Shown: positions 3,082 through 27,064 of the stretch, piece by piece | Numbering within the stretch: the first letter of the stretch is position 1 | Layout of the letters: each line of letters opens with the position of its first letter | Origin: Zoogloea sp. | GTDB lineage: Bacteria > Pseudomonadota > Gammaproteobacteria > Burkholderiales > Rhodocyclaceae | DNA length: 40,898 nucleotides | Assembly: GCF_030157465.1 (NCBI RefSeq) | Contig: NZ_JAOAUU010000121.1 | Coordinates: 1 to 40,898 of the forward strand | Reading direction: 5' to 3' | Notes under the pieces: generated by a model | Told to the model about the DNA's origin: nothing | Seen by the model: the letters and a program-made list of their open reading frames with translations, nothing else | Database searches by the model: none | Program-made: the position numbers and the translations under genes

Positions 3082-3185
3082 GACACTATGACGCACCGTT
3101 TTGGTGCAAAACATTGCCTCACGTCATACCCGCGGCGATTCCCGTGTTTTAAGGTGCGCGCTCTTGCAAAACCGAGAGCACCACC

Positions 3186-5180
3186 ATGAATCGCCCTACC
3201 CCGCTGCGCTACGCCCTGCTGCCCCTCGCCATCGCCTGCGCCTTTCCGGCCGCCGCCGAAGGCAGCACCACCCTGGGTCAGGTCGTTGTGACCGCCCCGG
3301 CCATGGAAGCCCCGCTCACCGTCACCACCGACCCGCGCGCGCCGCGCCAGCCGGTGCCCGCCCACGACGGCGCCGACTACCTGAAGAACATCACCGGTTT
3401 TTCGGTGATCAGGAAGGGCGGCACCGACGGCGATCCGGTGTTCCGCGGCATGGCCGCCTCGCGCCTGGGCATCCTGCTCGACGGCGAGATGATCCTCGGC
3501 GGCTGCGGCATGCGCATGGACCCGCCCACCGCCTACGTCTTCCCCGAAGCCTTCGACCGGATCACGGTGCTGAAGGGCCCGCAGACCGTCAAGTACGGCC
3601 CCGGCAACAGCGCCGGCGTGGTGCTCTTCGAGCGCGCACCCAAGGTGCGCACCGGCTTCTCGAGCTACCTGGACGCCAGCGCGCTCGTCGGCAACTTCGG
3701 CCGCAACGACCAGGTGCTGGAAGCCGGCGTCGGCAACGAGAAGTACTACGCCGAGATCACCGGCACCCACGCCCACGCCCAGGACTACCGCGACGGCTCG
3801 GGCCGCAAGGTGCACTCGGCCTACGACCGCTGGAGCACCAGCGGCGCCATCGGCCTGACCCCCGACAAGGACACCCGCCTCGAGCTCACGTTTGCCAAGA
3901 GCGACGGCCAGGCCGCCTACGCCGACCGCACGATGGACGGCGTCAAGTTCGACCGGAGCAACGTGGGCCTCAAGTTCGAGAAATCCCGCATCAGCCCGCT
4001 CATCGCCAAGCTGGAAGCGCAGGTCTACTACAACTACGTGGACCACGTGATGGACAACTACAGCCTGCGCCCTCAGCCGCCCACGAAGATGGTCAACAAC
4101 CCCGACCGCGAGACCCGTGGCGGCCGCGTCGCCGCCACGCTCGATCTTTCGCCGCGCACCCGCCTCGAAACCGGCGTCGACTTCCAGACCAACGAACACA
4201 CCCTGCGCAGCGCCAGCGGTGCCGCGGTCGCCAGCTATGACAGCAAGGCCCGGACGGCCGACATGCGCTTCTTCACCTGGGGCGTGTTCGGCGAGCTCAG
4301 CCACGAACTCGACGCCGCCAACCGCCTGATCGGCGGCCTGCGGGTCGACTTCACCAAGGCCCAGGACCAGCGCAGCGGCCGCACAACGTCTGGCGTCACC
4401 GACAACGACACCCTGAAGGCCGGCTTCCTGCGCTGGGAGAACGCCTTCGCGCCCACCACCACGCTCTACGCCGGCCTCGGCCACACCGAGCGCGCGCCCG
4501 ATTACTGGGAGCGCGCCAAGTCGCCGGACACCTCAAGCCCGCTGGGCAGCACCTTCCTCATCAAACCCGAGAAGACCACCCAGCTCGACGCCGGGACGAT
4601 CTACGCCGCCGGCCCGGTGCGCGCCTCGGCCTCGCTGTTCTACGCCAAACACAAGGATTTCATCCAGATCCACCAGCTCACCGCGACCACCGCCGAAGCC
4701 CTCAACGTCGACGCCACCACCTACGGCGCCGAAGCCGACCTGAGCTACGCCCTGGGCCGCTTCTGGAAGACCTACGGCACCCTGGCCTGGACCCACGGCG
4801 AGAACGACAGCACCAACAAACCGCTGTCGCAGATCGCCCCGCTGGAGGGCCGCCTCGGCGCCGGCTACGACGACAAGGTGTGGAGCGCCGGTGCCCTGCT
4901 GCGCCTCGTCCAGGGCCAGAAGCGCTTCGACAAGAACTACGGCAACATCGTCGGGCAGGATATCGGCGCATCCAGCGGCTTCGGCATCGTGTCGCTCAAC
5001 GCCGCCTACAAGCCCGGCAAAGGCAGCCTGATCAGCGTCGGCGTGGATAACCTCTTCGACAAGACCTACGCCGAATTCATCAGCCGCGGCGGCGCCACCA
5101 TCGGCGGCTTCACGCAAACCACCCGCGTGAACGAGCCGGGCCGCACCGTGTGGCTCAAGGCGAACATCGCGTTCAAGTAA
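3186..5180 (+). CDS. TonB-dependent copper receptor (OprC/NosA type)
   Basis: A 664-residue outer-membrane receptor. It opens with a signal peptide cleaved near AAA-E (residue 24), then a TonB-box-like LGQVVVTA (30-37), the plug domain (about 55-150, with ITVLKGPQTVKYGPGNSAG) and a 22-strand-type barrel ending in a penultimate phenylalanine (NIAFK). The plug segment GGCGMRMDPPTAYVFPEAFD is typical of the copper receptor family. It holds a CxxxM pair, C107 and M111, matching the Cys/Met pair of the copper site known in Pseudomonas OprC. The family imports copper, and NosA relatives supply copper for nitrous oxide reductase. A GAGAG ribosome site precedes ATG 3186. No nos genes or copper chaperone are adjacent. 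Confidence 0.9.
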   Translation: MNRPTPLRYALLPLAIACAFPAAAEGSTTLGQVVVTAPAMEAPLTVTTDPRAPRQPVPAHDGADYLKNITGFSVIRKGGTDGDPVFRGMAASRLGILLDGEMILGGCGMRMDPPTAYVFPEAFDRITVLKGPQTVKYGPGNSAGVVLFERAPKVRTGFSSYLDASALVGNFGRNDQVLEAGVGNEKYYAEITGTHAHAQDYRDGSGRKVHSAYDRWSTSGAIGLTPDKDTRLELTFAKSDGQAAYADRTMDGVKFDRSNVGLKFEKSRISPLIAKLEAQVYYNYVDHVMDNYSLRPQPPTKMVNNPDRETRGGRVAATLDLSPRTRLETGVDFQTNEHTLRSASGAAVASYDSKARTADMRFFTWGVFGELSHELDAANRLIGGLRVDFTKAQDQRSGRTTSGVTDNDTLKAGFLRWENAFAPTTTLYAGLGHTERAPDYWERAKSPDTSSPLGSTFLIKPEKTTQLDAGTIYAAGPVRASASLFYAKHKDFIQIHQLTATTAEALNVDATTYGAEADLSYALGRFWKTYGTLAWTHGENDSTNKPLSQIAPLEGRLGAGYDDKVWSAGALLRLVQGQKRFDKNYGNIVGQDIGASSGFGIVSLNAAYKPGKGSLISVGVDNLFDKTYAEFISRGGATIGGFTQTTRVNEPGRTVWLKANIAFK

Positions 5181-11717: not shown

Positions 11718-11996
11718 ATGCTGACGATACAAGACTGCATCGAACTGTCCGAGCTGAACGAAGACGAAATCCTCGCCATTGCCGAACACGAGCACATCCC
11801 TGAAATGGCTGCGGTCGAGATGGGCAATTATCTGTGCCACACCCCGAGCGGCGAAAAACGCATCCGCAAGATGATCATCGAAGATATCCAGCACGCCCGC
11901 GAACGCGGTGACACCCCGCATGCGGCCATGCTCAAGACCATCCTCAAGCACTACATCGCCGAGCACCACCTGGCCACGCCCCACGGCAAGGCCTGA
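11718..11996 (+). CDS. Small conserved-type hypothetical protein
   Basis: A 92-residue soluble acidic protein, not assigned to a family. It begins MLTIQDCIELSELNEDEILA and is rich in glutamate, histidine and isoleucine with a helical pattern throughout. The start is firm: AAAGGAGG, a near-perfect ribosome site, sits 8 bases before ATG, and the codon use matches the neighbouring genes, so this is a real and probably well-translated gene. A strong terminator follows at 12018-12053, so it is likely monocistronic. The stretch HAAMLKTILKHYIAEHHL near the end could be an amphipathic helix. Confidence 0.8.
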   Translation: MLTIQDCIELSELNEDEILAIAEHEHIPEMAAVEMGNYLCHTPSGEKRIRKMIIEDIQHARERGDTPHAAMLKTILKHYIAEHHLATPHGKA

Positions 11997-12065: not shown

Positions 12066-13049
12066 ATGGCGATTCTCCGCTGCAACAAATGCTTCCATGT
12101 GGCCGAAGTGGCCGGCGAACTCGTCGGCAAGACCGTCGCCTGCCCCGCCTGCGGCACCGAGGTGCCCGCCTACGACACGGTTCTCTTCGTGAACAAGGTG
12201 CTTCAGCAATACTTCGCCCAGCGGGACGAACTCCAGCAGCTACGCGCCGCCCGGCCCGACGCCGCGGTAGCGCCGGCCCCCGCCGCGCCGCGCGCCGACA
12301 TCGACCTCCACAACACCGACCAGTTTGCCAGCGCCGCCCAGCACGCGGCCATCGCCGACTGGTTCCAGCGCCGCCAGATCCAGGTGCGCCCGCGGCCCGA
12401 CGCGGTGAACACCACCGGTTTCTTCGACGAGATCGCGGTGGAAATCGGCGACAACTACCCGCTCTTCGGTGAAGTGGTGGACAAGATCCGCTGGGGCCAG
12501 CAAAAAGACGTGCCCAACTTCAGCCTCAAGCTCGCCGACCGCAGCCAGAAAGACGGCCAGGCCATCAACGCCTTCTGCAAGCAGCTCTACGACCACACCT
12601 TCCTGGCCAAGTATTTCTACCAGAAGCAGGAAAAAATCGGCCGCGGCACCCTCCAGTCGGCACCGGCGATCCGCAGCTTCTTTGCCGGCGAATGGCTTGA
12701 ATGGTATGCCCTGATGAAGCTGCTCGGTCTCTTCCACGAAAAGGGCCGCGAGGTGTCGTGCACCCGCAGCCTGGAGGTGATATTTCCCAACGAAGACCTG
12801 CACGAACTCGACGTGTTCTTCCTCGTCGATGGCAGCACGCCGGTGTGTGTCGAATGCAAGACCGGCGAATTCCGCCCCGAGATCGACAAATACCTGCGCC
12901 TGAGAAAGCGCCTCGGCATCGACCGCAGCCAGTTCATCCTGTGCGCAAGCAACCTCACCGACGAACAGGCGGCCGGATTGTCGGGCATGTATGAGCTGAC
13001 TTTCGTCAGCCCGACCGGCCTCGCCCCCCATCTGGCCAAGCTGTTCTGA
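12066..13049 (+). CDS. Zinc-ribbon protein with Card1-like PD-(D/E)XK nuclease domain
   Basis: A 327-residue protein in three parts. Residues 1-35 are a zinc ribbon with CNKC (C6, C9) and CPAC (C26, C29). Residues 36-200 are a linker rich in alanine and proline followed by a helical region of unknown fold. Residues 203-300 look like a PD-(D/E)XK nuclease: FFAGEWLEWYALMKLL (E209/E212), then EDLHELDVFFLVDG (D249) and VCVECKTGEF (E263, K265). The order WLE, ELDV, ECKTG is that of the Card1/Can2 (DUF1887) endonuclease domain, but I see no CARF domain in front. It is followed after 34 bp by recQ, which suggests a role in DNA processing (inference). Catalytic residues appear complete. Confidence 0.75.
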   Translation: MAILRCNKCFHVAEVAGELVGKTVACPACGTEVPAYDTVLFVNKVLQQYFAQRDELQQLRAARPDAAVAPAPAAPRADIDLHNTDQFASAAQHAAIADWFQRRQIQVRPRPDAVNTTGFFDEIAVEIGDNYPLFGEVVDKIRWGQQKDVPNFSLKLADRSQKDGQAINAFCKQLYDHTFLAKYFYQKQEKIGRGTLQSAPAIRSFFAGEWLEWYALMKLLGLFHEKGREVSCTRSLEVIFPNEDLHELDVFFLVDGSTPVCVECKTGEFRPEIDKYLRLRKRLGIDRSQFILCASNLTDEQAAGLSGMYELTFVSPTGLAPHLAKLF

Positions 13050-13083: not shown

Positions 13084-14901
<1,818 letters not shown>

Positions 14902-18278: not shown

Positions 18279-21200
18279 CTATCTGAAAGACAACGAGAAC
18301 AGCATGTCCAGCGCGTTCTCGCTGCCGGCACGGCCGATCACGGCGATGCGGCGCGTGAGCTGGTAGGTGAGCTTCACGATGCTGGAGGTGCCGGCAATGC
18401 TCTGCTCGAAGGACAGCATGGCCCGCGACGAGAGGCGCTTGCCGATGGTGATGACCTGGCCCGGCACGCTGCCGCCGGTGCCCGCCGAGGCGCGGGAGGC
18501 CGTGCCGGTGACGCTGCCGGTGGCGACGCTGCTGGTTTGCACCCGGCTCCGGCTGTCGATGCCCGTTCCAAACGAAATCTCGTCGAAACCGAGCGCCTTG
18601 GCGAGGCTGGCCGACATGCCGCCACCACTGCCGCCGAGCAGGGCCTGGGCGGCGGGCAGCAGCAGCGCCATTTCGCCGCCGGAGCCCTGATCGGGCGGGC
18701 GCCCGAGCACGATCCAGCCGAGCTTTTCGGGGTCGGGCACGTTGGGTTCGGACACCAGCCGCACAACCGGCCGGCGCGCCGTGCCGCTGATGCCGACGCC
18801 CGCTTCCACCGACAGGCCCTTGCGCAGGGCGACCACGTTGAGGCCGGGATTGGCGAGCGGACCACTGAAGGTGACGATGCCGCGCTCGATGCTCAGCATC
18901 TGCCCGTAGCCCTCGAAAACCCCGCCCACGGTGGTGATGGTGCCGGTCGCCGCCAGCGGACGGCCGTCGCCGGAATTGAGGCGCAGGTTGCCGGCGAGCC
19001 GGGTGTCGAGGCCGAGGGCCTTGACGTAGAGCGCATCGCCAAGGCCGATGGCCAGATCGACCGACATCTTGAACGGGCTGGCCTGGGGCCTGCCTTTGCC
19101 GGCCGGATCGAGCACCACCACGTCGTCGCCCAGGCTGGGCGCCGGCGTGCGCGACAGCTCGACAAAACCGGCATCGGCAGCCAGGCGGCCCTTGAGGTGG
19201 GCGGAGTTCCAGCCGGTGATCACCTCGCCTTCGCCGCTCAGGACCAGCCATTGGTCCTCCCGCTGCAAAAGCGGCAGGCGCTCGGCGGTGAAGTCGAAGT
19301 GCCCTGCCCCGCTGGCCAGGTTCACTTCGCCCCGCGCCTTGAGGGTGCCCGGCGTGCGGGTGAGCCGGGCCATGTCGATGCGCCCTTCGTTGGGCCGCAC
19401 CCGGTTGGGCGAGACAAAGCTGAATTCTTCAAGATTCAGGCGATCGCGGTTGAAATCGGCCTGCAGGGTGCCGCCGGACAGGTGCAGGCCCTGGTCCGCC
19501 ATCACGAAGGAAAGTTGCTCGCCGCGGATTCGCCCGGCGGCTTCGGGCCGGGCCGGGGTGCCGGCCAGCGTGAATTCGCCCTTCAGGCTGCCGTCGGTCT
19601 TGAGGTTCTGGTCGGCCAGCGGGCCGGCCCAGGCGATGGACGGAATGTCGAGGCGCGCCGCGCCCAGCAGCGGCGCACCGGGCACCAGGCGCACGCTGCC
19701 GTCGGCGGCACGTTCGGCCAGCGCGGTGCCGGCGCCGGAGGCGCTGCCGAGCCGGCTGCCGTGGGCGCTGAAGCCGAAAGCCAGGCGGTTGGCGACGGCG
19801 TTGAGGGTGAGCTGCAAATCGTCGAGACCAAGCCGCACCGGCGAGTCGCCCTGCAGTTCGAGATCGCCTTTTTCGCGGTAGATGCGCACCAGGCCATTCA
19901 CCTGCTCGGCAATGTCCACGTCCCACTCGCCGCCGATCTGCAGGGAATCGCCGCGGGATTTGACCGCCCGGGTGGACGGATCGAGGATCACCCCGACCTG
20001 GACGCCGCCCATGCTGCCGCGGGCCACGAGATGACGCGCCTGCCAGCGGGTTTCGTCGAGGCGGTAACGCCCGCCGGAGCCCCCGCGCAGTTCGGCCGTG
20101 CCAAGACGCATCAGGTCGCGCGACAGCAGCAGCGGTGCCGGCGCAAGCAGCACCGCCGGGTAATCGCCGCGCACTTCGAGGCTGTCGAGCCGGCCTTCCC
20201 AGCGCGGGCCGTCGCCCAGCTGGCCGGTCAGGCTGAGCACGCCCGACTGGGCGCCTCGGCCAATCACTTCGAGCCGGGCGGTATTGGCGGCGCGGCTGCC
20301 ATCGAAGACGAAGCTGGCGCGGTGCACCAGCGCCTCCTTCTCGGCAATCCGGCCCAGTCCGGTAAGGCCCAGCGTGAGCGCGATGGCGCCGCTGCGCCCT
20401 TCGGCCAGGCGACCGCGGCCGTTGACGGTGTCGACGCGCAGGGCGCCAAAACCGAGTTTTTCGCCAAGCAGTTCAAACTCGCCGGCTGGGTGGTCGACAC
20501 TGCCGCGCAGCACGCCGTCGAGCTTGAGCCGCCCGCCCAGGCCGTGGCCCAGCGCAGCGAGGCTCGGGGCATCGAGGTGCACGGCCAGCGCATCGCCGGG
20601 CTTGCCGTAGCGCCCTTTGGCCGACAGGCGGTTGCCGGCAATCTCCAGCGCCAGATCGGCATGGGCGAGGCGCGAGCCGTCGAGGCTCAGCTCGCCCTTG
20701 CCGGCCAGCGGCTTGCCCTCGAAGGTGCTGGAGGCGAGTTCAAAATCGAGCTGGCCGGCCAGTTGCGGCAGGCGTTGGCCCTTCAGGCTGAAGCGGGTGT
20801 TGAGTTCGGCCGCCGGCGCGCTCGAAACGAAGGCGCGGGGATCGAAATTTTTCAGCTGGCCACGGGCTTCGAAAGCCCCCGGCCCGGCCAGCCGCAGGGT
20901 GCCGGCGGCGTCGAGCCGGGCGGCCCTGGCGCTGGCCACAAGCCGGTCGATGGTCACGAGGCCGGCGCGGTGACGGGCATCGACGCGCAGCGCGAGTTGC
21001 GGGTCGCGCAGATCGGCGCTCACGGTTTGCGAGTCGGCGTCGGCCCTGGCCTCGATGCTGCCGGCAATCCGCGTGGCCACGGCCCGCGTGTCGAGCCGGC
21101 GCGCATCGAGCCCGGTGATGCGCAGTTCGGCATCCACGGCACCGAAACCGTTTTTCTCGTCGCCCCTGGGCGCCTGCCAGCGGGCGGAACCCTCGCCGCG

Positions 21201-22316
21201 GCCCTTGCCGGGCAGGCGCAGGTCGAGCCCGGAAAACGCCAGCTCGCCACCGGCCCAGCGCACGCTGGCGGCCAGGGATTCGAGGGGCAGCGCGCCGCTG
21301 TCGTAGCTGCCGGGCTGGTGATTGACGATGCGCACCGGGCCGCTGACGATCCAGTCGGCGGCCGCGGGCTTGCCGGCACCGGGGGCCACGGAGGGTTCGA
21401 GCGTGGCGTCGATGTCGAGCGCGGCCCTCGGGGCGGCGGCGCTGAAGCGGCTCGGATCGAGGCCGACGAGCTTGAGCACGGCCGACTTCAGCGGCAGCGG
21501 CGCAAAGGGCGTTGCCACTATGGCGGCCGTGCCGTCCATCCCGGCGCCGCTCGCCGTGGCGTCGAGCGTGAGGTTTTCGAGGTCGCCGCTGGCGCTGGCC
21601 TGCACCGCCCACGCCTGGTCCGCCTGGCGGGTGGCGAGGCGGGCAGTGGCCTTGAGCGGAAAAGGCCGGCGCCCGTCGAGTTCGAGGTCGGCGCCAAGCT
21701 GGCCGAAGGGCGCGGTGAGGCTGAGGCCGGTGAGCCTGTGTTGACGGCCGTCCGAGGCCAGCGCACCGGCAAGGGCGGTGAATTCGAGATCGGGCGGCGC
21801 GGGCTGGCCGTCGACCAGTTTGCCGATCGACAAACGGTCGATCTGGAAGCGGCCGATGTGCAGCGCCCTGGGCGATTCGAGGCTGGCCGGAAGCGTCGCG
21901 GCCTCGTCACTGGGGCTGCTGGCGACCGAAACCTCGGCGGCCGACAGCGTGCTCATGTCGAGCCCGCCGCGCGCCAGCGCAGCCGGACGCCAGTCGATGA
22001 CGAGCTGGCGGACATCCACCTGCAGCGTGGGCGTGCGCACATGCAGCGCGCCCACCTTGAGCTGGCCGAACAGATAGCCCTCGGGCGCCTCGACGCTCAC
22101 CACGCCGCCGCTGAGCCGGGCCGCCAGGTCGACCACTGCCTGCAGGCCGGATTGCGTGCCGCCGAGCCAACCGGTCACCAGCACAACAACCAGCACCAGC
22201 CCGAGCGCCGCGGCCAGCAGCCCGCGCATGACGCGCGCCAGCCGGCCCTCGCGGCGGCGCGGAGCCGCTGCGGGAGCCTCGGGGCCCGGGTCGTGGGGTG
22301 CGGGCGCCTCGTTCAT
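18279..22316 (-). CDS. tamB: Translocation and assembly module protein TamB
   Basis: A 1345-residue AsmA-like protein. A cytoplasmic arginine-rich N-terminus leads into one membrane helix (about 29-50, GLLAAALGLVLVVVLVTGWL). A very long periplasmic region of repeated beta segments follows, and the TamB/DUF490 domain occupies about the last 350 residues, ending LDMLFSLSFR. TamB spans the periplasm with TamA and helps insert outer-membrane proteins and move phospholipids. The length is typical. No tamA is next to it: the gene upstream is trpC, whose stop codon is 3 bp before the tamB ATG. The preceding GCTAAGGG may give a weak ribosome site, so translational coupling to trpC is likely. Confidence 0.92.
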   Translation of the reverse strand: MNEAPAPHDPGPEAPAAAPRRREGRLARVMRGLLAAALGLVLVVVLVTGWLGGTQSGLQAVVDLAARLSGGVVSVEAPEGYLFGQLKVGALHVRTPTLQVDVRQLVIDWRPAALARGGLDMSTLSAAEVSVASSPSDEAATLPASLESPRALHIGRFQIDRLSIGKLVDGQPAPPDLEFTALAGALASDGRQHRLTGLSLTAPFGQLGADLELDGRRPFPLKATARLATRQADQAWAVQASASGDLENLTLDATASGAGMDGTAAIVATPFAPLPLKSAVLKLVGLDPSRFSAAAPRAALDIDATLEPSVAPGAGKPAAADWIVSGPVRIVNHQPGSYDSGALPLESLAASVRWAGGELAFSGLDLRLPGKGRGEGSARWQAPRGDEKNGFGAVDAELRITGLDARRLDTRAVATRIAGSIEARADADSQTVSADLRDPQLALRVDARHRAGLVTIDRLVASARAARLDAAGTLRLAGPGAFEARGQLKNFDPRAFVSSAPAAELNTRFSLKGQRLPQLAGQLDFELASSTFEGKPLAGKGELSLDGSRLAHADLALEIAGNRLSAKGRYGKPGDALAVHLDAPSLAALGHGLGGRLKLDGVLRGSVDHPAGEFELLGEKLGFGALRVDTVNGRGRLAEGRSGAIALTLGLTGLGRIAEKEALVHRASFVFDGSRAANTARLEVIGRGAQSGVLSLTGQLGDGPRWEGRLDSLEVRGDYPAVLLAPAPLLLSRDLMRLGTAELRGGSGGRYRLDETRWQARHLVARGSMGGVQVGVILDPSTRAVKSRGDSLQIGGEWDVDIAEQVNGLVRIYREKGDLELQGDSPVRLGLDDLQLTLNAVANRLAFGFSAHGSRLGSASGAGTALAERAADGSVRLVPGAPLLGAARLDIPSIAWAGPLADQNLKTDGSLKGEFTLAGTPARPEAAGRIRGEQLSFVMADQGLHLSGGTLQADFNRDRLNLEEFSFVSPNRVRPNEGRIDMARLTRTPGTLKARGEVNLASGAGHFDFTAERLPLLQREDQWLVLSGEGEVITGWNSAHLKGRLAADAGFVELSRTPAPSLGDDVVVLDPAGKGRPQASPFKMSVDLAIGLGDALYVKALGLDTRLAGNLRLNSGDGRPLAATGTITTVGGVFEGYGQMLSIERGIVTFSGPLANPGLNVVALRKGLSVEAGVGISGTARRPVVRLVSEPNVPDPEKLGWIVLGRPPDQGSGGEMALLLPAAQALLGGSGGGMSASLAKALGFDEISFGTGIDSRSRVQTSSVATGSVTGTASRASAGTGGSVPGQVITIGKRLSSRAMLSFEQSIAGTSSIVKLTYQLTRRIAVIGRAGSENALDMLFSLSFR

Positions 22317-22319
22317 CCC

Positions 22320-23108
22320 TTAGCCGAACAGGCTGGCCAGACCGGCACCGGGATCGTCGGCGCGCATGAAGGCTTCGCCAACGAGGAAGGCATTGACCTT
22401 GTTCTCGCGCATCACGGCCACGTCGCCGGGCGTGAGGATGCCCGATTCGGTTACCACGATGCGATCCGGCGGAATGCGCGGCAGCAGGTCGAGGGTATTT
22501 TGCAGACTGACTTCGAAGGTGCGCAGGTTGCGGTTGTTGATGCCGAGAAGCGGCGTGCGCAGCTGCAGCGCCAGATCAAGCTCGGCGCCGTCGTGCACTT
22601 CGACCAGCACGCCCAGGCCGAGGCTTTCGGCGATGCTTTCCATCTCCTGCATTTCGGCCAGGCTCAGGGCCGAGACAATCAGCAGGATCGCGTCGGCGCC
22701 CATCGCGCGGGCTTCGAACACCTGATAAGGATCGACCAGGAAATCCTTGCGCAGGGCCGGCAGGCTGCAGGCGGCGCGGGCGGCCTGGAGGTATTCCGGC
22801 GCGCCCTGGAAGAACTGCTTGTCGGTGAGCACCGACAGGCAGGCGGCGCCGGCCTTTTCGTAACTGGCGGCAATGTCGGCCGGACGGAAGTCGGCACGGA
22901 TCACGCCCTTCGAGGGGCTGGCCTTCTTGATCTCGGAAATCACCGCGGGCTGGCCGGCCGCAATTTTCGCGCGGATCGCGGCGACGAAACCTCGCGCCGG
23001 AGCTTCTGCCGCGGCGCGTTCGCGCACGGCGGAATCGGAAACCAGCGCACGGGCGGCGGCCACTTCCTCACGCTTCACGGCGAGGATTTTATTGAGGATG
23101 TCGGACAT
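22320..23108 (-). CDS. trpC: Indole-3-glycerol phosphate synthase
   Basis: A 262-residue (beta-alpha)8 barrel enzyme that closes the indole ring from CdRP in tryptophan synthesis. Signature segments are [18 protein letters not shown] (substrate-binding lysine), [40 protein letters not shown] and IVVTESGI. The frame opens 4 codons further (23120), but ATG 23108 starts the conserved MSDILNKIL and follows GAGAG. It is a monofunctional enzyme without a fused TrpF. It follows trpD after 45 bp that contain a REP-like hairpin. Confidence 0.97.
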
Positions 23109-23120
23109 GCGATCTCTCAT

Positions 23121-23147
23121 TTAGGGGCGACCGAAGTCGCCCTACAG
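23121..23147. repeat. REP-like palindrome, copy 2, in trpD-trpC gap
   Basis: TAGGGGCGAC-CGAA-GTCGCCCTA, with one bulged G. Its reverse complement reads TGTAGGGCGACTTCGGTCGC, close to the copy at 308-330. It sits inside the trp operon and may modulate trpC expression. Confidence 0.6.
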
Positions 23148-23153
23148 AAGGGG

Positions 23154-24185
23154 TCAGGCGAACTTTCTGGTGCAGGCGATGAAGGCTTCCATCTTGGCGC
23201 GCGCGGCGCCCGAAGCCAGCACTTCACGCGCCCTGGCGATGCCGGCGCCGATGGAATCGACCACGTTGGCGGTGTAGAGCGCCGTGCCGGCGTTGAGGGT
23301 GACGATCTCGCGGGGGGCACCCGGATGGTTGTCGAGCACGCCGAGCAGCACGCTCTTCGACTCTTCGGCATCGGCCACCTTGAGGTTGCGGCTGGACATC
23401 ATGGTCATGCCGAAATCCTCGGGGTGGATTTCATACTCGAGAATCTTGCCGTCCTTGAGTTCGCCGACCATCGTGGCGGCGCCCAGCGACACTTCGTCCA
23501 TGCTGTCGTGGCCGTACACCACCATCACGTGCTTGGCGCCGAGGCGCTCCATCACGCGCACGCAAATGCCCACGAGATCGGGGTGGAACACGCCGAGCAG
23601 GGTGTTGGGCGCGCCGGCCGGATTGGTGAGCGGGCCAAGGATGTTGAACAGCGTGCGCACGCCCATTTCGCGGCGCACCGGGGCCACGTTCTTCATGGCG
23701 CTGTGGTGGTTGGGCGCAAACATGAAACCGATGCCGGTTTCGGCGATGCACTCGGCCACCTGCTCCGGCTTGAGATTGAGATTGACGCCCAGCGCTTCGA
23801 GCACATCGGCGCTGCCCGACTTGCTGGAAACGCTGCGCCCGCCGTGCTTGGCCACGCGGGCGCCGGCCGCGGCGGCCACGAAGATCGTCGCGGTGGAAAT
23901 GTTGAAGGTGTGGGAGCCGTCGCCGCCGGTGCCGACCACATCGAGGAAGTGGTCGTTGGGCGGCGGCACCACCACCTTGGTGGACAGCTCGCGCATCACG
24001 GTGGCGGCGGCGGCGATCTCGCCGATGGTTTCCTTCTTGACGCGCAGGCCGGTGAGGATGGCGGCGGTCATCACCGGCGAGATGTCGCCGGCCATGATCT
24101 GGCGCATCAGCGAGAGCATTTCGTCGTAGAAGATCTCGCGGTGGTCAATGGTGCGCTGCAGGGCTTCCTGGGCAGTAAAGGTCAT
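23154..24185 (-). CDS. trpD: Anthranilate phosphoribosyltransferase
   Basis: A 343-residue enzyme joining anthranilate to PRPP in the second committed step to tryptophan. The PRPP-binding loop reads [37 protein letters not shown] and [18 protein letters not shown] form the anthranilate tunnel; [10 protein letters not shown] and the metal-binding DEVSLG follow. Length and motifs are complete. It begins 13 bp after the trpG stop, in a trpG-trpD-trpC unit. Confidence 0.97.
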
Positions 24186-24198
24186 GAGCGGGCTCCGG

Positions 24199-24774
24199 TC
24201 AGGCGTTCTTGGATTGTTCGAGGAAGTTGCGCAGCAGGTCGTGGCCGCGCTCGGTCAGGATGGATTCCGGATGAAACTGGACGCCTTCCACCGCGAGGGT
24301 CTTATGGCGCACGCCCATGATTTCGCCGTCATCGGTCCAGGCCGTCACTTCAAGACAGTCGGGCAGGCTTTCGCGCTCGATGGCCAGCGAGTGGTAGCGC
24401 GTGCAGGTGAGCGGGTTGGGCAGCCCCTTGAAGACCCCGCTGTCGAGGTGATGCACCGGCGACACCTTGCCGTGCATCAGCTTCTTGGCGTGCACGATCC
24501 TGCCGCCGAAGGCCGCGCCGATGCTCTGGTGGCCAAGGCACACGCCTAGCAGCGGAATCTTGCCGGCGAAGGCCTGGATGGCCGCCACCGAAATGCCGGC
24601 CTCGGCGGGTGAACACGGCCCCGGCGAAACGACGATCTGGTCGGGCTTGAGATTGGCGATCTGTTCGACGGTGATTTCGTCGTTGCGGAACACCTTCACT
24701 TCAGCGCCAAGCTCGCCAAAATACTGGACGAGGTTGTAAGTGAAGCTGTCGTAGTTGTCGATCATCAGCAGCAT
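24199..24774 (-). CDS. trpG: Anthranilate synthase component II (glutamine amidotransferase)
   Basis: A 191-residue class I glutamine amidotransferase that feeds ammonia to TrpE. The catalytic triad is visible: C79 in [12 protein letters not shown], and H168 and E170 in VQFHPES. The oxyanion region [11 protein letters not shown] is present. The frame is open to 24894, but ATG 24774 begins the conserved [14 protein letters not shown] and has AAGGA ahead of it. This protein may also serve as PabA, as in many betaproteobacteria (inference). Confidence 0.96.
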
Positions 24775-24846
24775 GGCTGGAAATCCTTTCCGGAAATGCG
24801 GCCGGCCTCGCGGGTCAGGCCCGGGGCGGCGGACGCAATTGCATAA

Positions 24847-24875
24847 TTTGTATTGAACTCGGCCGGGCGCCGCAA
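24847..24875 (-). promoter_or_regulatory. Candidate promoter for trpGDC
   Basis: On the minus strand TTGCGG and TACAAA are spaced by exactly 17 bp, about 75 bp before trpG. Since trpE is cut off by an opposing gene, trpG needs its own promoter. Confidence 0.4.
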
Positions 24876-24900
24876 GGCACGCAAAGGCCGGCAAAACTTT

Positions 24901-24914
24901 GTAACCATGGTTAC
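24901..24914. promoter_or_regulatory. Perfect palindrome GTAACCATGGTTAC
   Basis: A 14-bp perfect inverted repeat in the divergent region between trpG and the exported-protein gene, 26 bp upstream of the trpG -35 candidate. It is an operator candidate for either gene. It does not match the TrpR or TyrR consensus well. Confidence 0.4.
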
Positions 24915-24977
24915 CGACAGGCGGCCGCCGGCTGTGGAATCATTCGCCCGCTTTCCATATAACAACGAGGACACATC

Positions 24978-25532
24978 ATGAAAACCGCCCGCATCCTGCT
25001 TGCCGCCGCTGCCCTGACTGCCGCCGCCGCTCCGGCCCTGGCCGGCGACTGGAAATTTCTGCCCGTCACCGAAAAGGGCTACGCCCCGGCCTTCGTGGCC
25101 TCCGTTACCGGCGGCGTGATGGACCCACAACACGTCAAGAGCGGCGACGCCTGGGGCCTCGAACTGGCCATGAACTGCGGCCTTCTGCAGACGCCCACCG
25201 GCGTGATCCGCACCAAGCTGTCGGTCACCAAGTTCGACAAGGGCGGCCTTGACCTGACCACCGTCGAACTCAACCCCCGCTGGACCACGCCGATCGCCAA
25301 GGATCTGACCCTCGGCGTCGGCCCCGGCATCGGCTGGGTGAAGGCCGACGGCGGCAGCCGCAACGTGGACATGTTCGCCTGGCAGGTTGGCGCCGATCTC
25401 GACTACCGGATCGGCCAGCTCAACCTGGGCCTCGGCGCCCGCTGGCAGGACACGGTGAACAAGACCGTCGCCACCGGCCAGGCCGGTGCGGACAACTGGC
25501 TGGTCCAGGCCAAGGTCGGCGTCGCGTTTTAA
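24978..25532 (+). CDS. Exported protein, probable small outer-membrane beta-barrel
   Basis: A 184-residue protein with a clear signal peptide cleaved after ALA-G (about residue 22). The mature part alternates polar and hydrophobic residues in short strands (LTLGVGPGIGWVKA, QLNLGLGARWQDT) and ends WLVQAKVGVAF, with the terminal phenylalanine typical of outer-membrane barrels. With about 160 mature residues, an eight-strand barrel is plausible; the family is not recognised. ATG 24978 follows a GAGG ribosome site. It has its own terminator and points against the trp genes, so it is an insertion in the usual trpE-trpG order. Confidence 0.75.
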   Translation: MKTARILLAAAALTAAAAPALAGDWKFLPVTEKGYAPAFVASVTGGVMDPQHVKSGDAWGLELAMNCGLLQTPTGVIRTKLSVTKFDKGGLDLTTVELNPRWTTPIAKDLTLGVGPGIGWVKADGGSRNVDMFAWQVGADLDYRIGQLNLGLGARWQDTVNKTVATGQAGADNWLVQAKVGVAF

Positions 25533-25558
25533 CGCGCGCGCGTTCGGCAAGCCCGTGC

Positions 25559-25583
25559 AAGGCCGCCTCCGGGCGGCCTTTTT
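25559..25583 (+). terminator. Rho-independent terminator
   Basis: AAGGCCGCC-TCCG-GGCGGCCTTTTT, a perfect GC stem and a T-run, 27 bp after the exported-protein gene and just before the convergent trpE stop. It may also act on trpE transcripts. Confidence 0.85.
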
Positions 25584-25591
25584 CATGGCTG

Positions 25592-27064
25592 TCACAGCCG
25601 CGTGTCGAGTCCGGCTTCGGCGATCTCGGCGGCGCGCAGCATCGCGCGGGCCTTGCTCTGGGTTTCCTGCCATTCGGATTGCGGGTCGGAATCGGCAACG
25701 ATGCCGGCGCCGGCCTGGACGTGAATCTTGCCGTCCTTGACCACCGCGGTGCGGATCGCGATGGCGAGATCCATGTCGCCATGAAAGCCGATGTAGCCCA
25801 CCGAACCGGCATAGATGCCGCGCTTGGTGGGTTCGAGTTCGTCGATGATTTCCATCGCCCGCAGCTTGGGCGCGCCGGACACGGTGCCGGCCGGGAAGGT
25901 GGCGCGCAGCACGGCCAGCGCGTTGAGATCGTCCTTCAGCTTGCCTTCGACGTTGGAGACGATGTGCATCACGTGGGAATAGCGCTCGACGGTGAAGCGC
26001 TCGGTCACGCGCACGCTGCCGGTCTTGGCAACACGGCCGCAGTCGTTGCGGCCCAGATCAAGCAGCTGGGTGTGCTCGGCGCGCTCCTTTTCGTCGGCCA
26101 GCAGTTCCTGCTCCAGCGCGAGATCTTCTTCGTGGGTGGCGCCGCGCTTGCGGGTGCCGGCGATGGGCCGCACGGTCACGTCGCCGTCTTCGAGGCGAAC
26201 CAGGATTTCTGGCGAGGCGCCGACCACCTGGAACTCTTCGAAATTGAAATAAAACATGTACGGCGAGGGGTTCAGGCTGCGGATCGAGCGGTACAGCGCC
26301 AGCGGGCTGGCGCCGAAGGGCTTGCTCATGCGCTGGCTGAGCACCACCTGCATGATGTCGCCCTCGACGATGTAATCCTTGGCCTTTTGCACGGCGGCCT
26401 TGAAGGCTTCCTCGCCAAAGCTGGACACGGCCTCGGCGGGCGCGGCGCGCTGGTCGGCGGGCACCGGCACCGGCTCGCGCAGGCGGACGAGGAGTTCCTT
26501 GAGCCGCTTGACGGCGCGCTTGTAGGCGTTGGGGACTTCCGGCTCGGCATAGACGACCAGCGTGAGCTTGCCGGAGAGGTTGTCGACGATGGCGATTTCT
26601 TCGGACAGCAGCAGCAGGATGTCCGGCGTGCCGAGTTCGTCCGGCTTTTCGGTCTTGGCCAGGCGCGGCTCGATGTAGCGCACCGTGTCGTAGCCGAAGC
26701 AACCCACCAGGCCGCCGGCAAAGCGCGGCAGGTGGGCGCGCGGCGGCACCTTGATGCGGTCCATGAACTCGGCGACGTAGCTGAGCGGATCTCCGTAATC
26801 GCGACGTTCGACGAGGCGGTCGTTGGTCAGCAGCAACACCGAGCGGCCGCGCACCTCGATGCGCGTCGGGGCGGCCAGGCCGATGATCGAATAGCGCCCG
26901 AAACGCTCGCCGCCCTGCACGGATTCGAGCAGGTAGGTGTTGGGCACATTGGCCAGTTTCAGGTAAACAGAAAGAGGGGTGTCGAGATCCGCAAAGGTTT
27001 CGACGGTAACCGGAATGCGGTTATAGCCCTGGTCGGCCAGGGCGTTGAATTCGGCTTCTGTCAT
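25592..27064 (-). CDS. trpE: Anthranilate synthase component I
   Basis: A 490-residue chorismate-using enzyme making anthranilate with TrpG. The feedback site is visible in [16 protein letters not shown], whose LLES segment binds tryptophan. The catalytic domain carries [52 protein letters not shown] and [20 protein letters not shown]. Family members usually have DLGRND followed by valine or isoleucine; cysteine here is a mild oddity. ATG 27064 follows a GGAG-type site. The usual partner trpG is not directly downstream, being separated by the opposing gene at 24978. Confidence 0.97.

Follow-up and report, generated by a model that had tools for sequence, protein, structure and literature searches.

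The protein encoded at 12066-13049 in Zoogloea sp. carries a predicted PD-(D/E)XK nuclease core for which the case for a Card1/Can2 identity is strong, preceded by a predicted zinc ribbon and a long helix in place of a CARF domain. We lean towards the view that it is a stand-alone, metal-dependent nuclease of the Card1/Can2 superfamily that works without CARF and independently of cyclic nucleotides, most likely protecting its host against mobile elements. The source DNA is contig NZ_JAOAUU010000121.1 of assembly GCF_030157465.1 (contig C120 of genome G000 in our collection), and the window, meaning the whole stretch of 40,898 bases analysed, covers its positions 1-40,898. The coordinates of the reading frame and its length of 327 residues agree exactly with the initial annotation. 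The reading frame is more than a chance one, since homologues with 41-82% identity occur in three phyla, the median dN/dS is 0.20 (78 pairs among 13 same-genus copies), and C6, C9, C26, C29, E212, E247, D249, E263 and K265 are kept in 44 of 44 distinct full-length homologues, a set from which broken and partial copies had been excluded beforehand. The features discussed below are as follows.

11718..11996, + strand: small upstream protein of 92 residues, an independent family (missing together with the nuclease between the MBL gene and recQ in G010 and G011)
12066..13049, + strand: CARF-less Card1/Can2-type nuclease gene (ATG start, 327 residues)
12066..12170, + strand: predicted N-terminal zinc ribbon, residues 1-35 (Cys6, Cys9, Cys26, Cys29; all four invariant, 44/44)
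12177..12251, + strand: long helix, residues 38-62, coiled-coil-like by eye (AlphaFold2 model)
12252..12314, + strand: linker, residues 63-83 (pLDDT below 50 at 64-79; variable in the alignment)
12315..12662, + strand: helical middle domain with a two-strand hairpin, residues 84-199 (AlphaFold2 model, extent of the Foldseek alignment)
12663..13046, + strand: PD-(D/E)XK nuclease core, residues 200-327 (PADLOC, Foldseek, profile comparisons)
12699..12701, + strand: E212 of the WLEW motif (invariant, 44/44)
12804..12812, + strand: E247-L-D249, aligned with E276/D278 of SthCan2 (profile alignment to 7BDV; invariant, 44/44)
12852..12860, + strand: E263-C-K265, aligned with the E-C-K of Can2-type proteins (profile comparisons; invariant, 44/44)
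13084..14901, + strand: recQ, a chromosomal neighbour outside the proposed system (DEAD, Helicase_C, RecQ_Zn_bind, RQC, HRDC)

Domain layout and nuclease core

The initial annotation had recognized a Card1-type PD-(D/E)XK core from its WLE (210-212), ELDV (247-250) and ECKTG (263-267) motifs, all of which are present, and had proposed a comparison of the predicted fold with Card1. The AlphaFold2 model (mean pLDDT 87, pTM 0.71, from an alignment of 24 sequences) indeed contains a restriction-nuclease core of the Card1/Can2 type. In a Foldseek search of the PDB with the full-length model, ranks 1-18 are all VC1899, Cdn1, Can2 or Card1 chains (E 2.2e-9 to 3.4e-4), headed by VC1899 (PDB 1XMX) at 2.2e-9, and rank 19 is an actin-like protein (E 8.1e-4, TM-score 0.17). 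The TM-score of 0.54 to Cdn1, normalised on 327 residues, implies at least 177 aligned residues, which exceeds the 128 of the core; the alignment should therefore also take in some residues beyond it, most likely those of the middle domain.

The sequence comparisons point to the same family and corroborate the annotated core. PADLOC matches the protein to its CARF_PDDEXK model at 4.4e-12, and an hhalign comparison with eight Can2-type proteins reaches 96.9% for residues 199-327. A profile of the family finds Can2 (7.2e-6) and Card1 (1.3e-4) among the PDB sequences; it also matches two TRIM5 entries (5.7e-4 and 5.1e-3) at profile positions 21-113, which we take as probable coiled-coil matches. 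The same profile places E247/D249 on E276/D278 of SthCan2 (7BDV; chain numbers counted by hand), the Can2 residues being those named in the accessible text of PMC7969007. Residues of both the E/D-x-D and the E-x-K type are thus present, as E247/D249 and E263/K265. The Card1_endonuc model (PF09002) matches the window protein below threshold (15.9 bits against a curated cut-off of 26.4, E 0.0097). Among the orthologues of eight genomes searched, this cut-off is passed by those of G141 (30.8 bits), G467 (32.3), G458 (30.3) and G459 (28.4) and is not reached by that of G460 (24.4), while those of G059, G456 and G457 have no match.

At the N-terminus, Cys6, Cys9, Cys26 and Cys29 stand in a pattern consistent with the annotated zinc ribbon. 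Its Pfam match to Zn_ribbon_8 is sub-threshold (E 0.014), and profile matches to the RPA12 and RNA polymerase P ribbons are weak (E 0.03-0.24). The further proposal that a zinc ribbon and a helical domain replace CARF holds in so far as the ribbon and the long helix are seen in the model and CARF_Card1 (PF23400) has no match in the window protein at E up to 1, nor in the orthologue L049 at E up to 0.01. With the same library, CARF_Card1 is found in nine of ten Can2-type proteins used for the tree (E up to 0.01), five of the ten over the cut-off; the remaining one, L104, has a weak HFX_2341_N match alone.

The middle domain was also considered as a stand-alone fold probe. Folded alone it reached a pLDDT of 71 and gave no Foldseek match below 1e-3, and it was dropped for this use. 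By eye, the elements at 119-196 of the model resemble an additional motif, built from four helices and a pair of antiparallel strands, that Can2 and VC1899 carry according to the accessible part of PMC7969007.

Distribution and conservation of the family

The distribution of the gene is patchy, covering Pseudomonadota, Desulfobulbaceae and one cyanobacterium. It is matched in 19 of 60 relatives, namely 18 of 23 genomes of the same genus (the window's own counted) and G059. A scan of named genomes gave 28 loci. The hosts of the family known by name are Zoogloea and other Zoogloeaceae, Thauera, two Pseudomonas, Neisseria, Desulfobulbaceae and the cyanobacterium Nodosilinea. Eight genomes match in a sample of 398 Pseudomonadota, three at full length (the own genome, G059 and G141) and five partially. 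Among 83 Neisseriaceae genomes, 20 match (14 full-length, two split-frame, three N-terminal-only and one C-terminal-only copies) and 63 are without the gene, which indicates that it is dispensable.

In a tree of the nuclease domain, 18 chosen family members together with the CARF-less protein L114 stand apart from ten Can2-type proteins (100/99). Without L114, which sits on a long branch flagged by the program, the family is supported at 91/84. Within the family tree, the Pseudomonas copies fall with Thauera (100/100), nested in a clade of mostly Zoogloeaceae that is drawn open (81/99). The Nodosilinea copy is joined to L048 and L039, both from Desulfobulbaceae (100/97). These groupings imply horizontal transfer between classes and between phyla. 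Searches for relatives in 72,556 plasmid records (three queries), in 50,697 phage records (one query) and by three pattern-based scans of IMG/VR, which depend on exact short peptides, were negative.

The zinc-ribbon/coil module was examined as a widely reused sensor and rejected as such: it matched 13 of the 398 Pseudomonadota genomes, where the three strong matches are full-length family members and the ten weak ones cover the ribbon part. In Neisseriaceae, G540 and G544 contain a module-like reading frame without the nuclease core. Short reading frames at L091 4780-5217 (-) and L092 4946-5263 (-) have the same zinc ribbon and helix and no nuclease core; they are either remnants or a separate module.

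Genomic context and alternative explanations

Ten reading frames of the window were scanned with each library (Pfam and PADLOC); those with a Pfam match are ordinary chromosomal genes, for a TonB receptor, histidine kinases, CheW, TamB, TrpC, TrpD and TrpE, two of the ten are unmatched, and no defence island appears around the gene among them. The TamB, TrpC, TrpD and TrpE genes lie at 18279-27064.

The gene recQ starts at 13084 on the same strand, 34 bases past the nuclease stop codon, and adjoins the nuclease gene at every one of the 18 same-genus loci whose 3' flank can be read, L001-L018 (L011 shows just the first 52 residues of RecQ, and the nuclease copy in L018 is split). A further locus, L020, is cut by the contig end and was left out of this count. 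The named records L021-L030 and L040 all show recQ as well, and they largely repeat the same genomes. In contrast, no recQ lies in the fetched flanks, roughly 1.5 to 6 kb as far as contig ends permit, of 18 loci from other lineages (L019, L031-L039, L041-L048), two of which are Zoogloeaceae MAGs. Two same-genus genomes, G010 and G011, have recQ without the nuclease gene. There an MBL gene adjoins recQ, and G011 retains 14 bases that by eye resemble the end of the nuclease gene, so that gene loss is likely. With its RQC and HRDC domains, and present in 17 of the 18 relatives searched, the recQ product is presumably the housekeeping RecQ. PADLOC labels it DpdF at 5.7e-258; since its DpdF models match an RQC/HRDC RecQ so well, this label alone may mean an ordinary RecQ. 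The link to recQ is thus local and genus-specific, and the functional tie that the initial annotation had read into it lacks support. The 92-residue upstream protein was likewise discarded as a partner: its family, often with a second diverged copy, is found in 36 of 60 relatives against 19 of 60 for the nuclease, and tblastn over the collected loci matched same-genus loci only.

As annotated, no CRISPR locus is visible in the window, which has no direct repeats of at least 22 bases within 120 bases of each other. A strong Cas10 match (E below 1e-15) occurs in just seven of 37 carrier genomes searched, several of them incomplete assemblies, which argues for independence from CRISPR. By the family cut-off the count is 10 of 37, the extra three scoring 25.7-29.6 bits and two of these passing only jointly with neighbouring matches. 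Some Cas10 match at E up to 0.001 is present in 22 of 37; most of these are weak, and we take them as cyclase-like domains. Dependence on type III systems was therefore rejected as a general rule. The own genome is one of the seven, with type III CRISPR genes on contig C88. Some 5 kb from a Cas10 match, the same contig encodes a CARF-bearing Can2-type protein of 532 residues (L106 1495-3093, -), whose N-terminus holds a Cas_VVA1548 domain.

In other lineages most neighbours, read by eye, look housekeeping or unrecognised. A recurrent site in Neisseriaceae is the slot between two Mur ligase genes of the division cluster, where seven of 14 full-length copies are located, as are two split copies and one remnant. 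The genes of this cluster are presumably murE, murF, mraY and ftsI; in L042 the Mur ligase, transpeptidase and glycosyltransferase domains of the neighbours were confirmed. This slot is a variable cargo site. It also holds M23 peptidase lipoprotein, AbiD, and NYN/OST-HTH or PIN7 genes (L042 7055-8618, L089 3832-7639, L045 7096-8836); the AbiD gene of L042 (PADLOC 7.3e-60) has blast matches in L089 and L090. At L039 5742-7522 (Desulfobulbaceae), a pair of AAA_21/AbiLi-like and DUF4276/AbiLii-like genes lies directly downstream of the homologue, and the pair was not seen at the related site L048. A gene for a PLD-domain and HTH protein, weakly DrmC-like, lies directly downstream of a Neisseriaceae homologue (L084 4229-4918, -). 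Divergent to the homologue in L034 is a gene for a CHAT-domain protein (3158-4936, -), with a clustered relative in the same position in L033. AbiD, the AbiL-like pair and the PLD protein were seen near the gene at a few of some 17 sites inspected by eye, a raw count, and nine hand-picked neighbours were scanned with PADLOC. The survey of neighbours suggested in the initial annotation speaks against recQ and yields a few Abi neighbours, which support a defence role weakly.

The context bears on several other readings of the protein. The 34-bp spacing, the shared strand and the constant adjacency within the genus could suggest a repair nuclease that, as a partner of RecQ, processes the ends or structures it unwinds. 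However, recQ is missing from the other-lineage flanks, G010 and G011 keep it beside the MBL gene without the nuclease, and it is present in each of 13 genomes from other genera of the same family, none of which matches the nuclease gene. We rejected a RecQ partnership on these grounds and leave such a repair role a slight chance. The family shared with Can2, together with the Cas10 and the CARF-bearing Can2-type protein of the own genome, would fit an ancillary type III CRISPR nuclease answering in trans to a CARF partner. The scarcity of Cas10 among carriers, whether counted by strong matches or by the family cut-off with its three marginal additions, counts against this, and no cas genes were recognised by eye among the neighbours examined. 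The chance of such a role seems slighter still.

A housekeeping nuclease for RNA or DNA quality control, without an immune role, would agree with the purifying selection, the housekeeping neighbours and the cold-shock-domain (CSD) gene that directly follows the homologue in L087 and, judged by eye, also in L085, L086 and L088. We regard it as unlikely, given three full-length matches in 398 Pseudomonadota genomes (own genome included), the split and partial copies and the transfer across phyla. The several Neisseria copies between murE and murF, a region occupied by dca in pathogens and by a hypothetical gene in N. lactamica according to the accessible part of PMC1538595, may instead suggest a nuclease that, in the manner of restriction enzymes, attacks DNA entering by natural transformation or conjugation. 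No methylase partner was noticed among the neighbours examined, and many of the hosts are not known for natural competence; this reading strikes us as improbable. Finally, the protein could be a degenerate, weakly active relic, as VC1899 is considered to be. The accessible text of PMC7969007 describes for VC1899 a weak residual RNase activity that is not regulated by cA4. The invariance of the putative catalytic residues (44 of 44 homologues) and the median dN/dS of 0.20 make this relic reading hardly credible.

Proposed function and relation to known systems

We therefore return to a stand-alone nuclease that is independent of cyclic nucleotides. In this proposal the long helix would dimerise the protein in place of the CARF dimer, and the zinc ribbon may itself bind the trigger, either foreign nucleic acid or something made by a phage or plasmid, with no need for cyclic oligoadenylate. 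The two nuclease cores would thereby be positioned to nick or cut DNA and/or RNA through D249, E263 and K265 with a metal ion. The activity itself is extrapolated from Can2, for which the accessible text of PMC7969007 describes metal-dependent nicking or cutting; on the side of the Zoogloea protein stand the predicted fold and the conservation of the residues. The gene would act alone, as a chromosomal accessory that spreads horizontally, is sometimes lost and most likely protects against mobile elements.

A defence role, which the initial annotation had suggested, is plausible on indirect grounds: the patchy horizontal distribution, the decay in some genomes and the few Abi neighbours. The mostly housekeeping or unrecognised neighbours, the lack of a defence island in the window and the absence of relatives in the phage, plasmid and IMG/VR searches count against it, and the case for defence is thin in this respect. 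Tentatively, the protein may represent a branch of Card1/Can2 that does without CARF and forms an innate immune system from a single gene, with the zinc-ribbon/coiled-coil module as a direct sensor of invading nucleic acid or of a phage protein. The nuclease would then work without CRISPR, a cyclase or a second messenger.

If the stand-alone nuclease proposal is correct, a Card1/Can2 effector nuclease exists outside cyclic-oligoadenylate signalling, with another sensor at the position of CARF. This suggests that control by CARF is one option among several for these nucleases, and the protein would be a compact single-gene candidate for studying how they are switched on. The initial annotation knew of no described family with this layout, and a literature search agreed in finding no published description of a zinc ribbon joined to a CARF-less Card1-type nuclease; an earlier mention in the 2020 CARF classification paper is possible.

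Among the closest known systems are a PADLOC entry and the protein L114. PADLOC lists PD_DExK PDLC01131, described as "same family as the one fused to CARF", as a relative of the CARF-fused nuclease; its match to the present protein is weak (E 0.049), and its description names no zinc ribbon. L114 (185-1525, -, genome G302) is CARF-less by Pfam and has a middle domain and a Card1-type core, matching positions 132-304 of the family model (middle domain and core) at E of about 1e-25. Unlike the family, with which it groups on its long branch, it has no visible zinc ribbon.

The orphan CARF protein VC1899, the best structural match, retains the CARF fold, whereas the Zoogloea protein has none. 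With Can2, Card1 and Cdn1 (DUF1887; PF09002; PDB 7BDV, 6WXW and 9U49) it shares the C-terminal PD-(D/E)XK core, the G-x-W-L/F-E, E-L/I-D and E-C-K motifs and some alignable region outside the core. It differs from them in having a zinc ribbon and a long helix instead of CARF; its family also has a NED-x-x-ELD stretch and, in contrast to these effectors, resides mostly in genomes without a strong Cas10 match.
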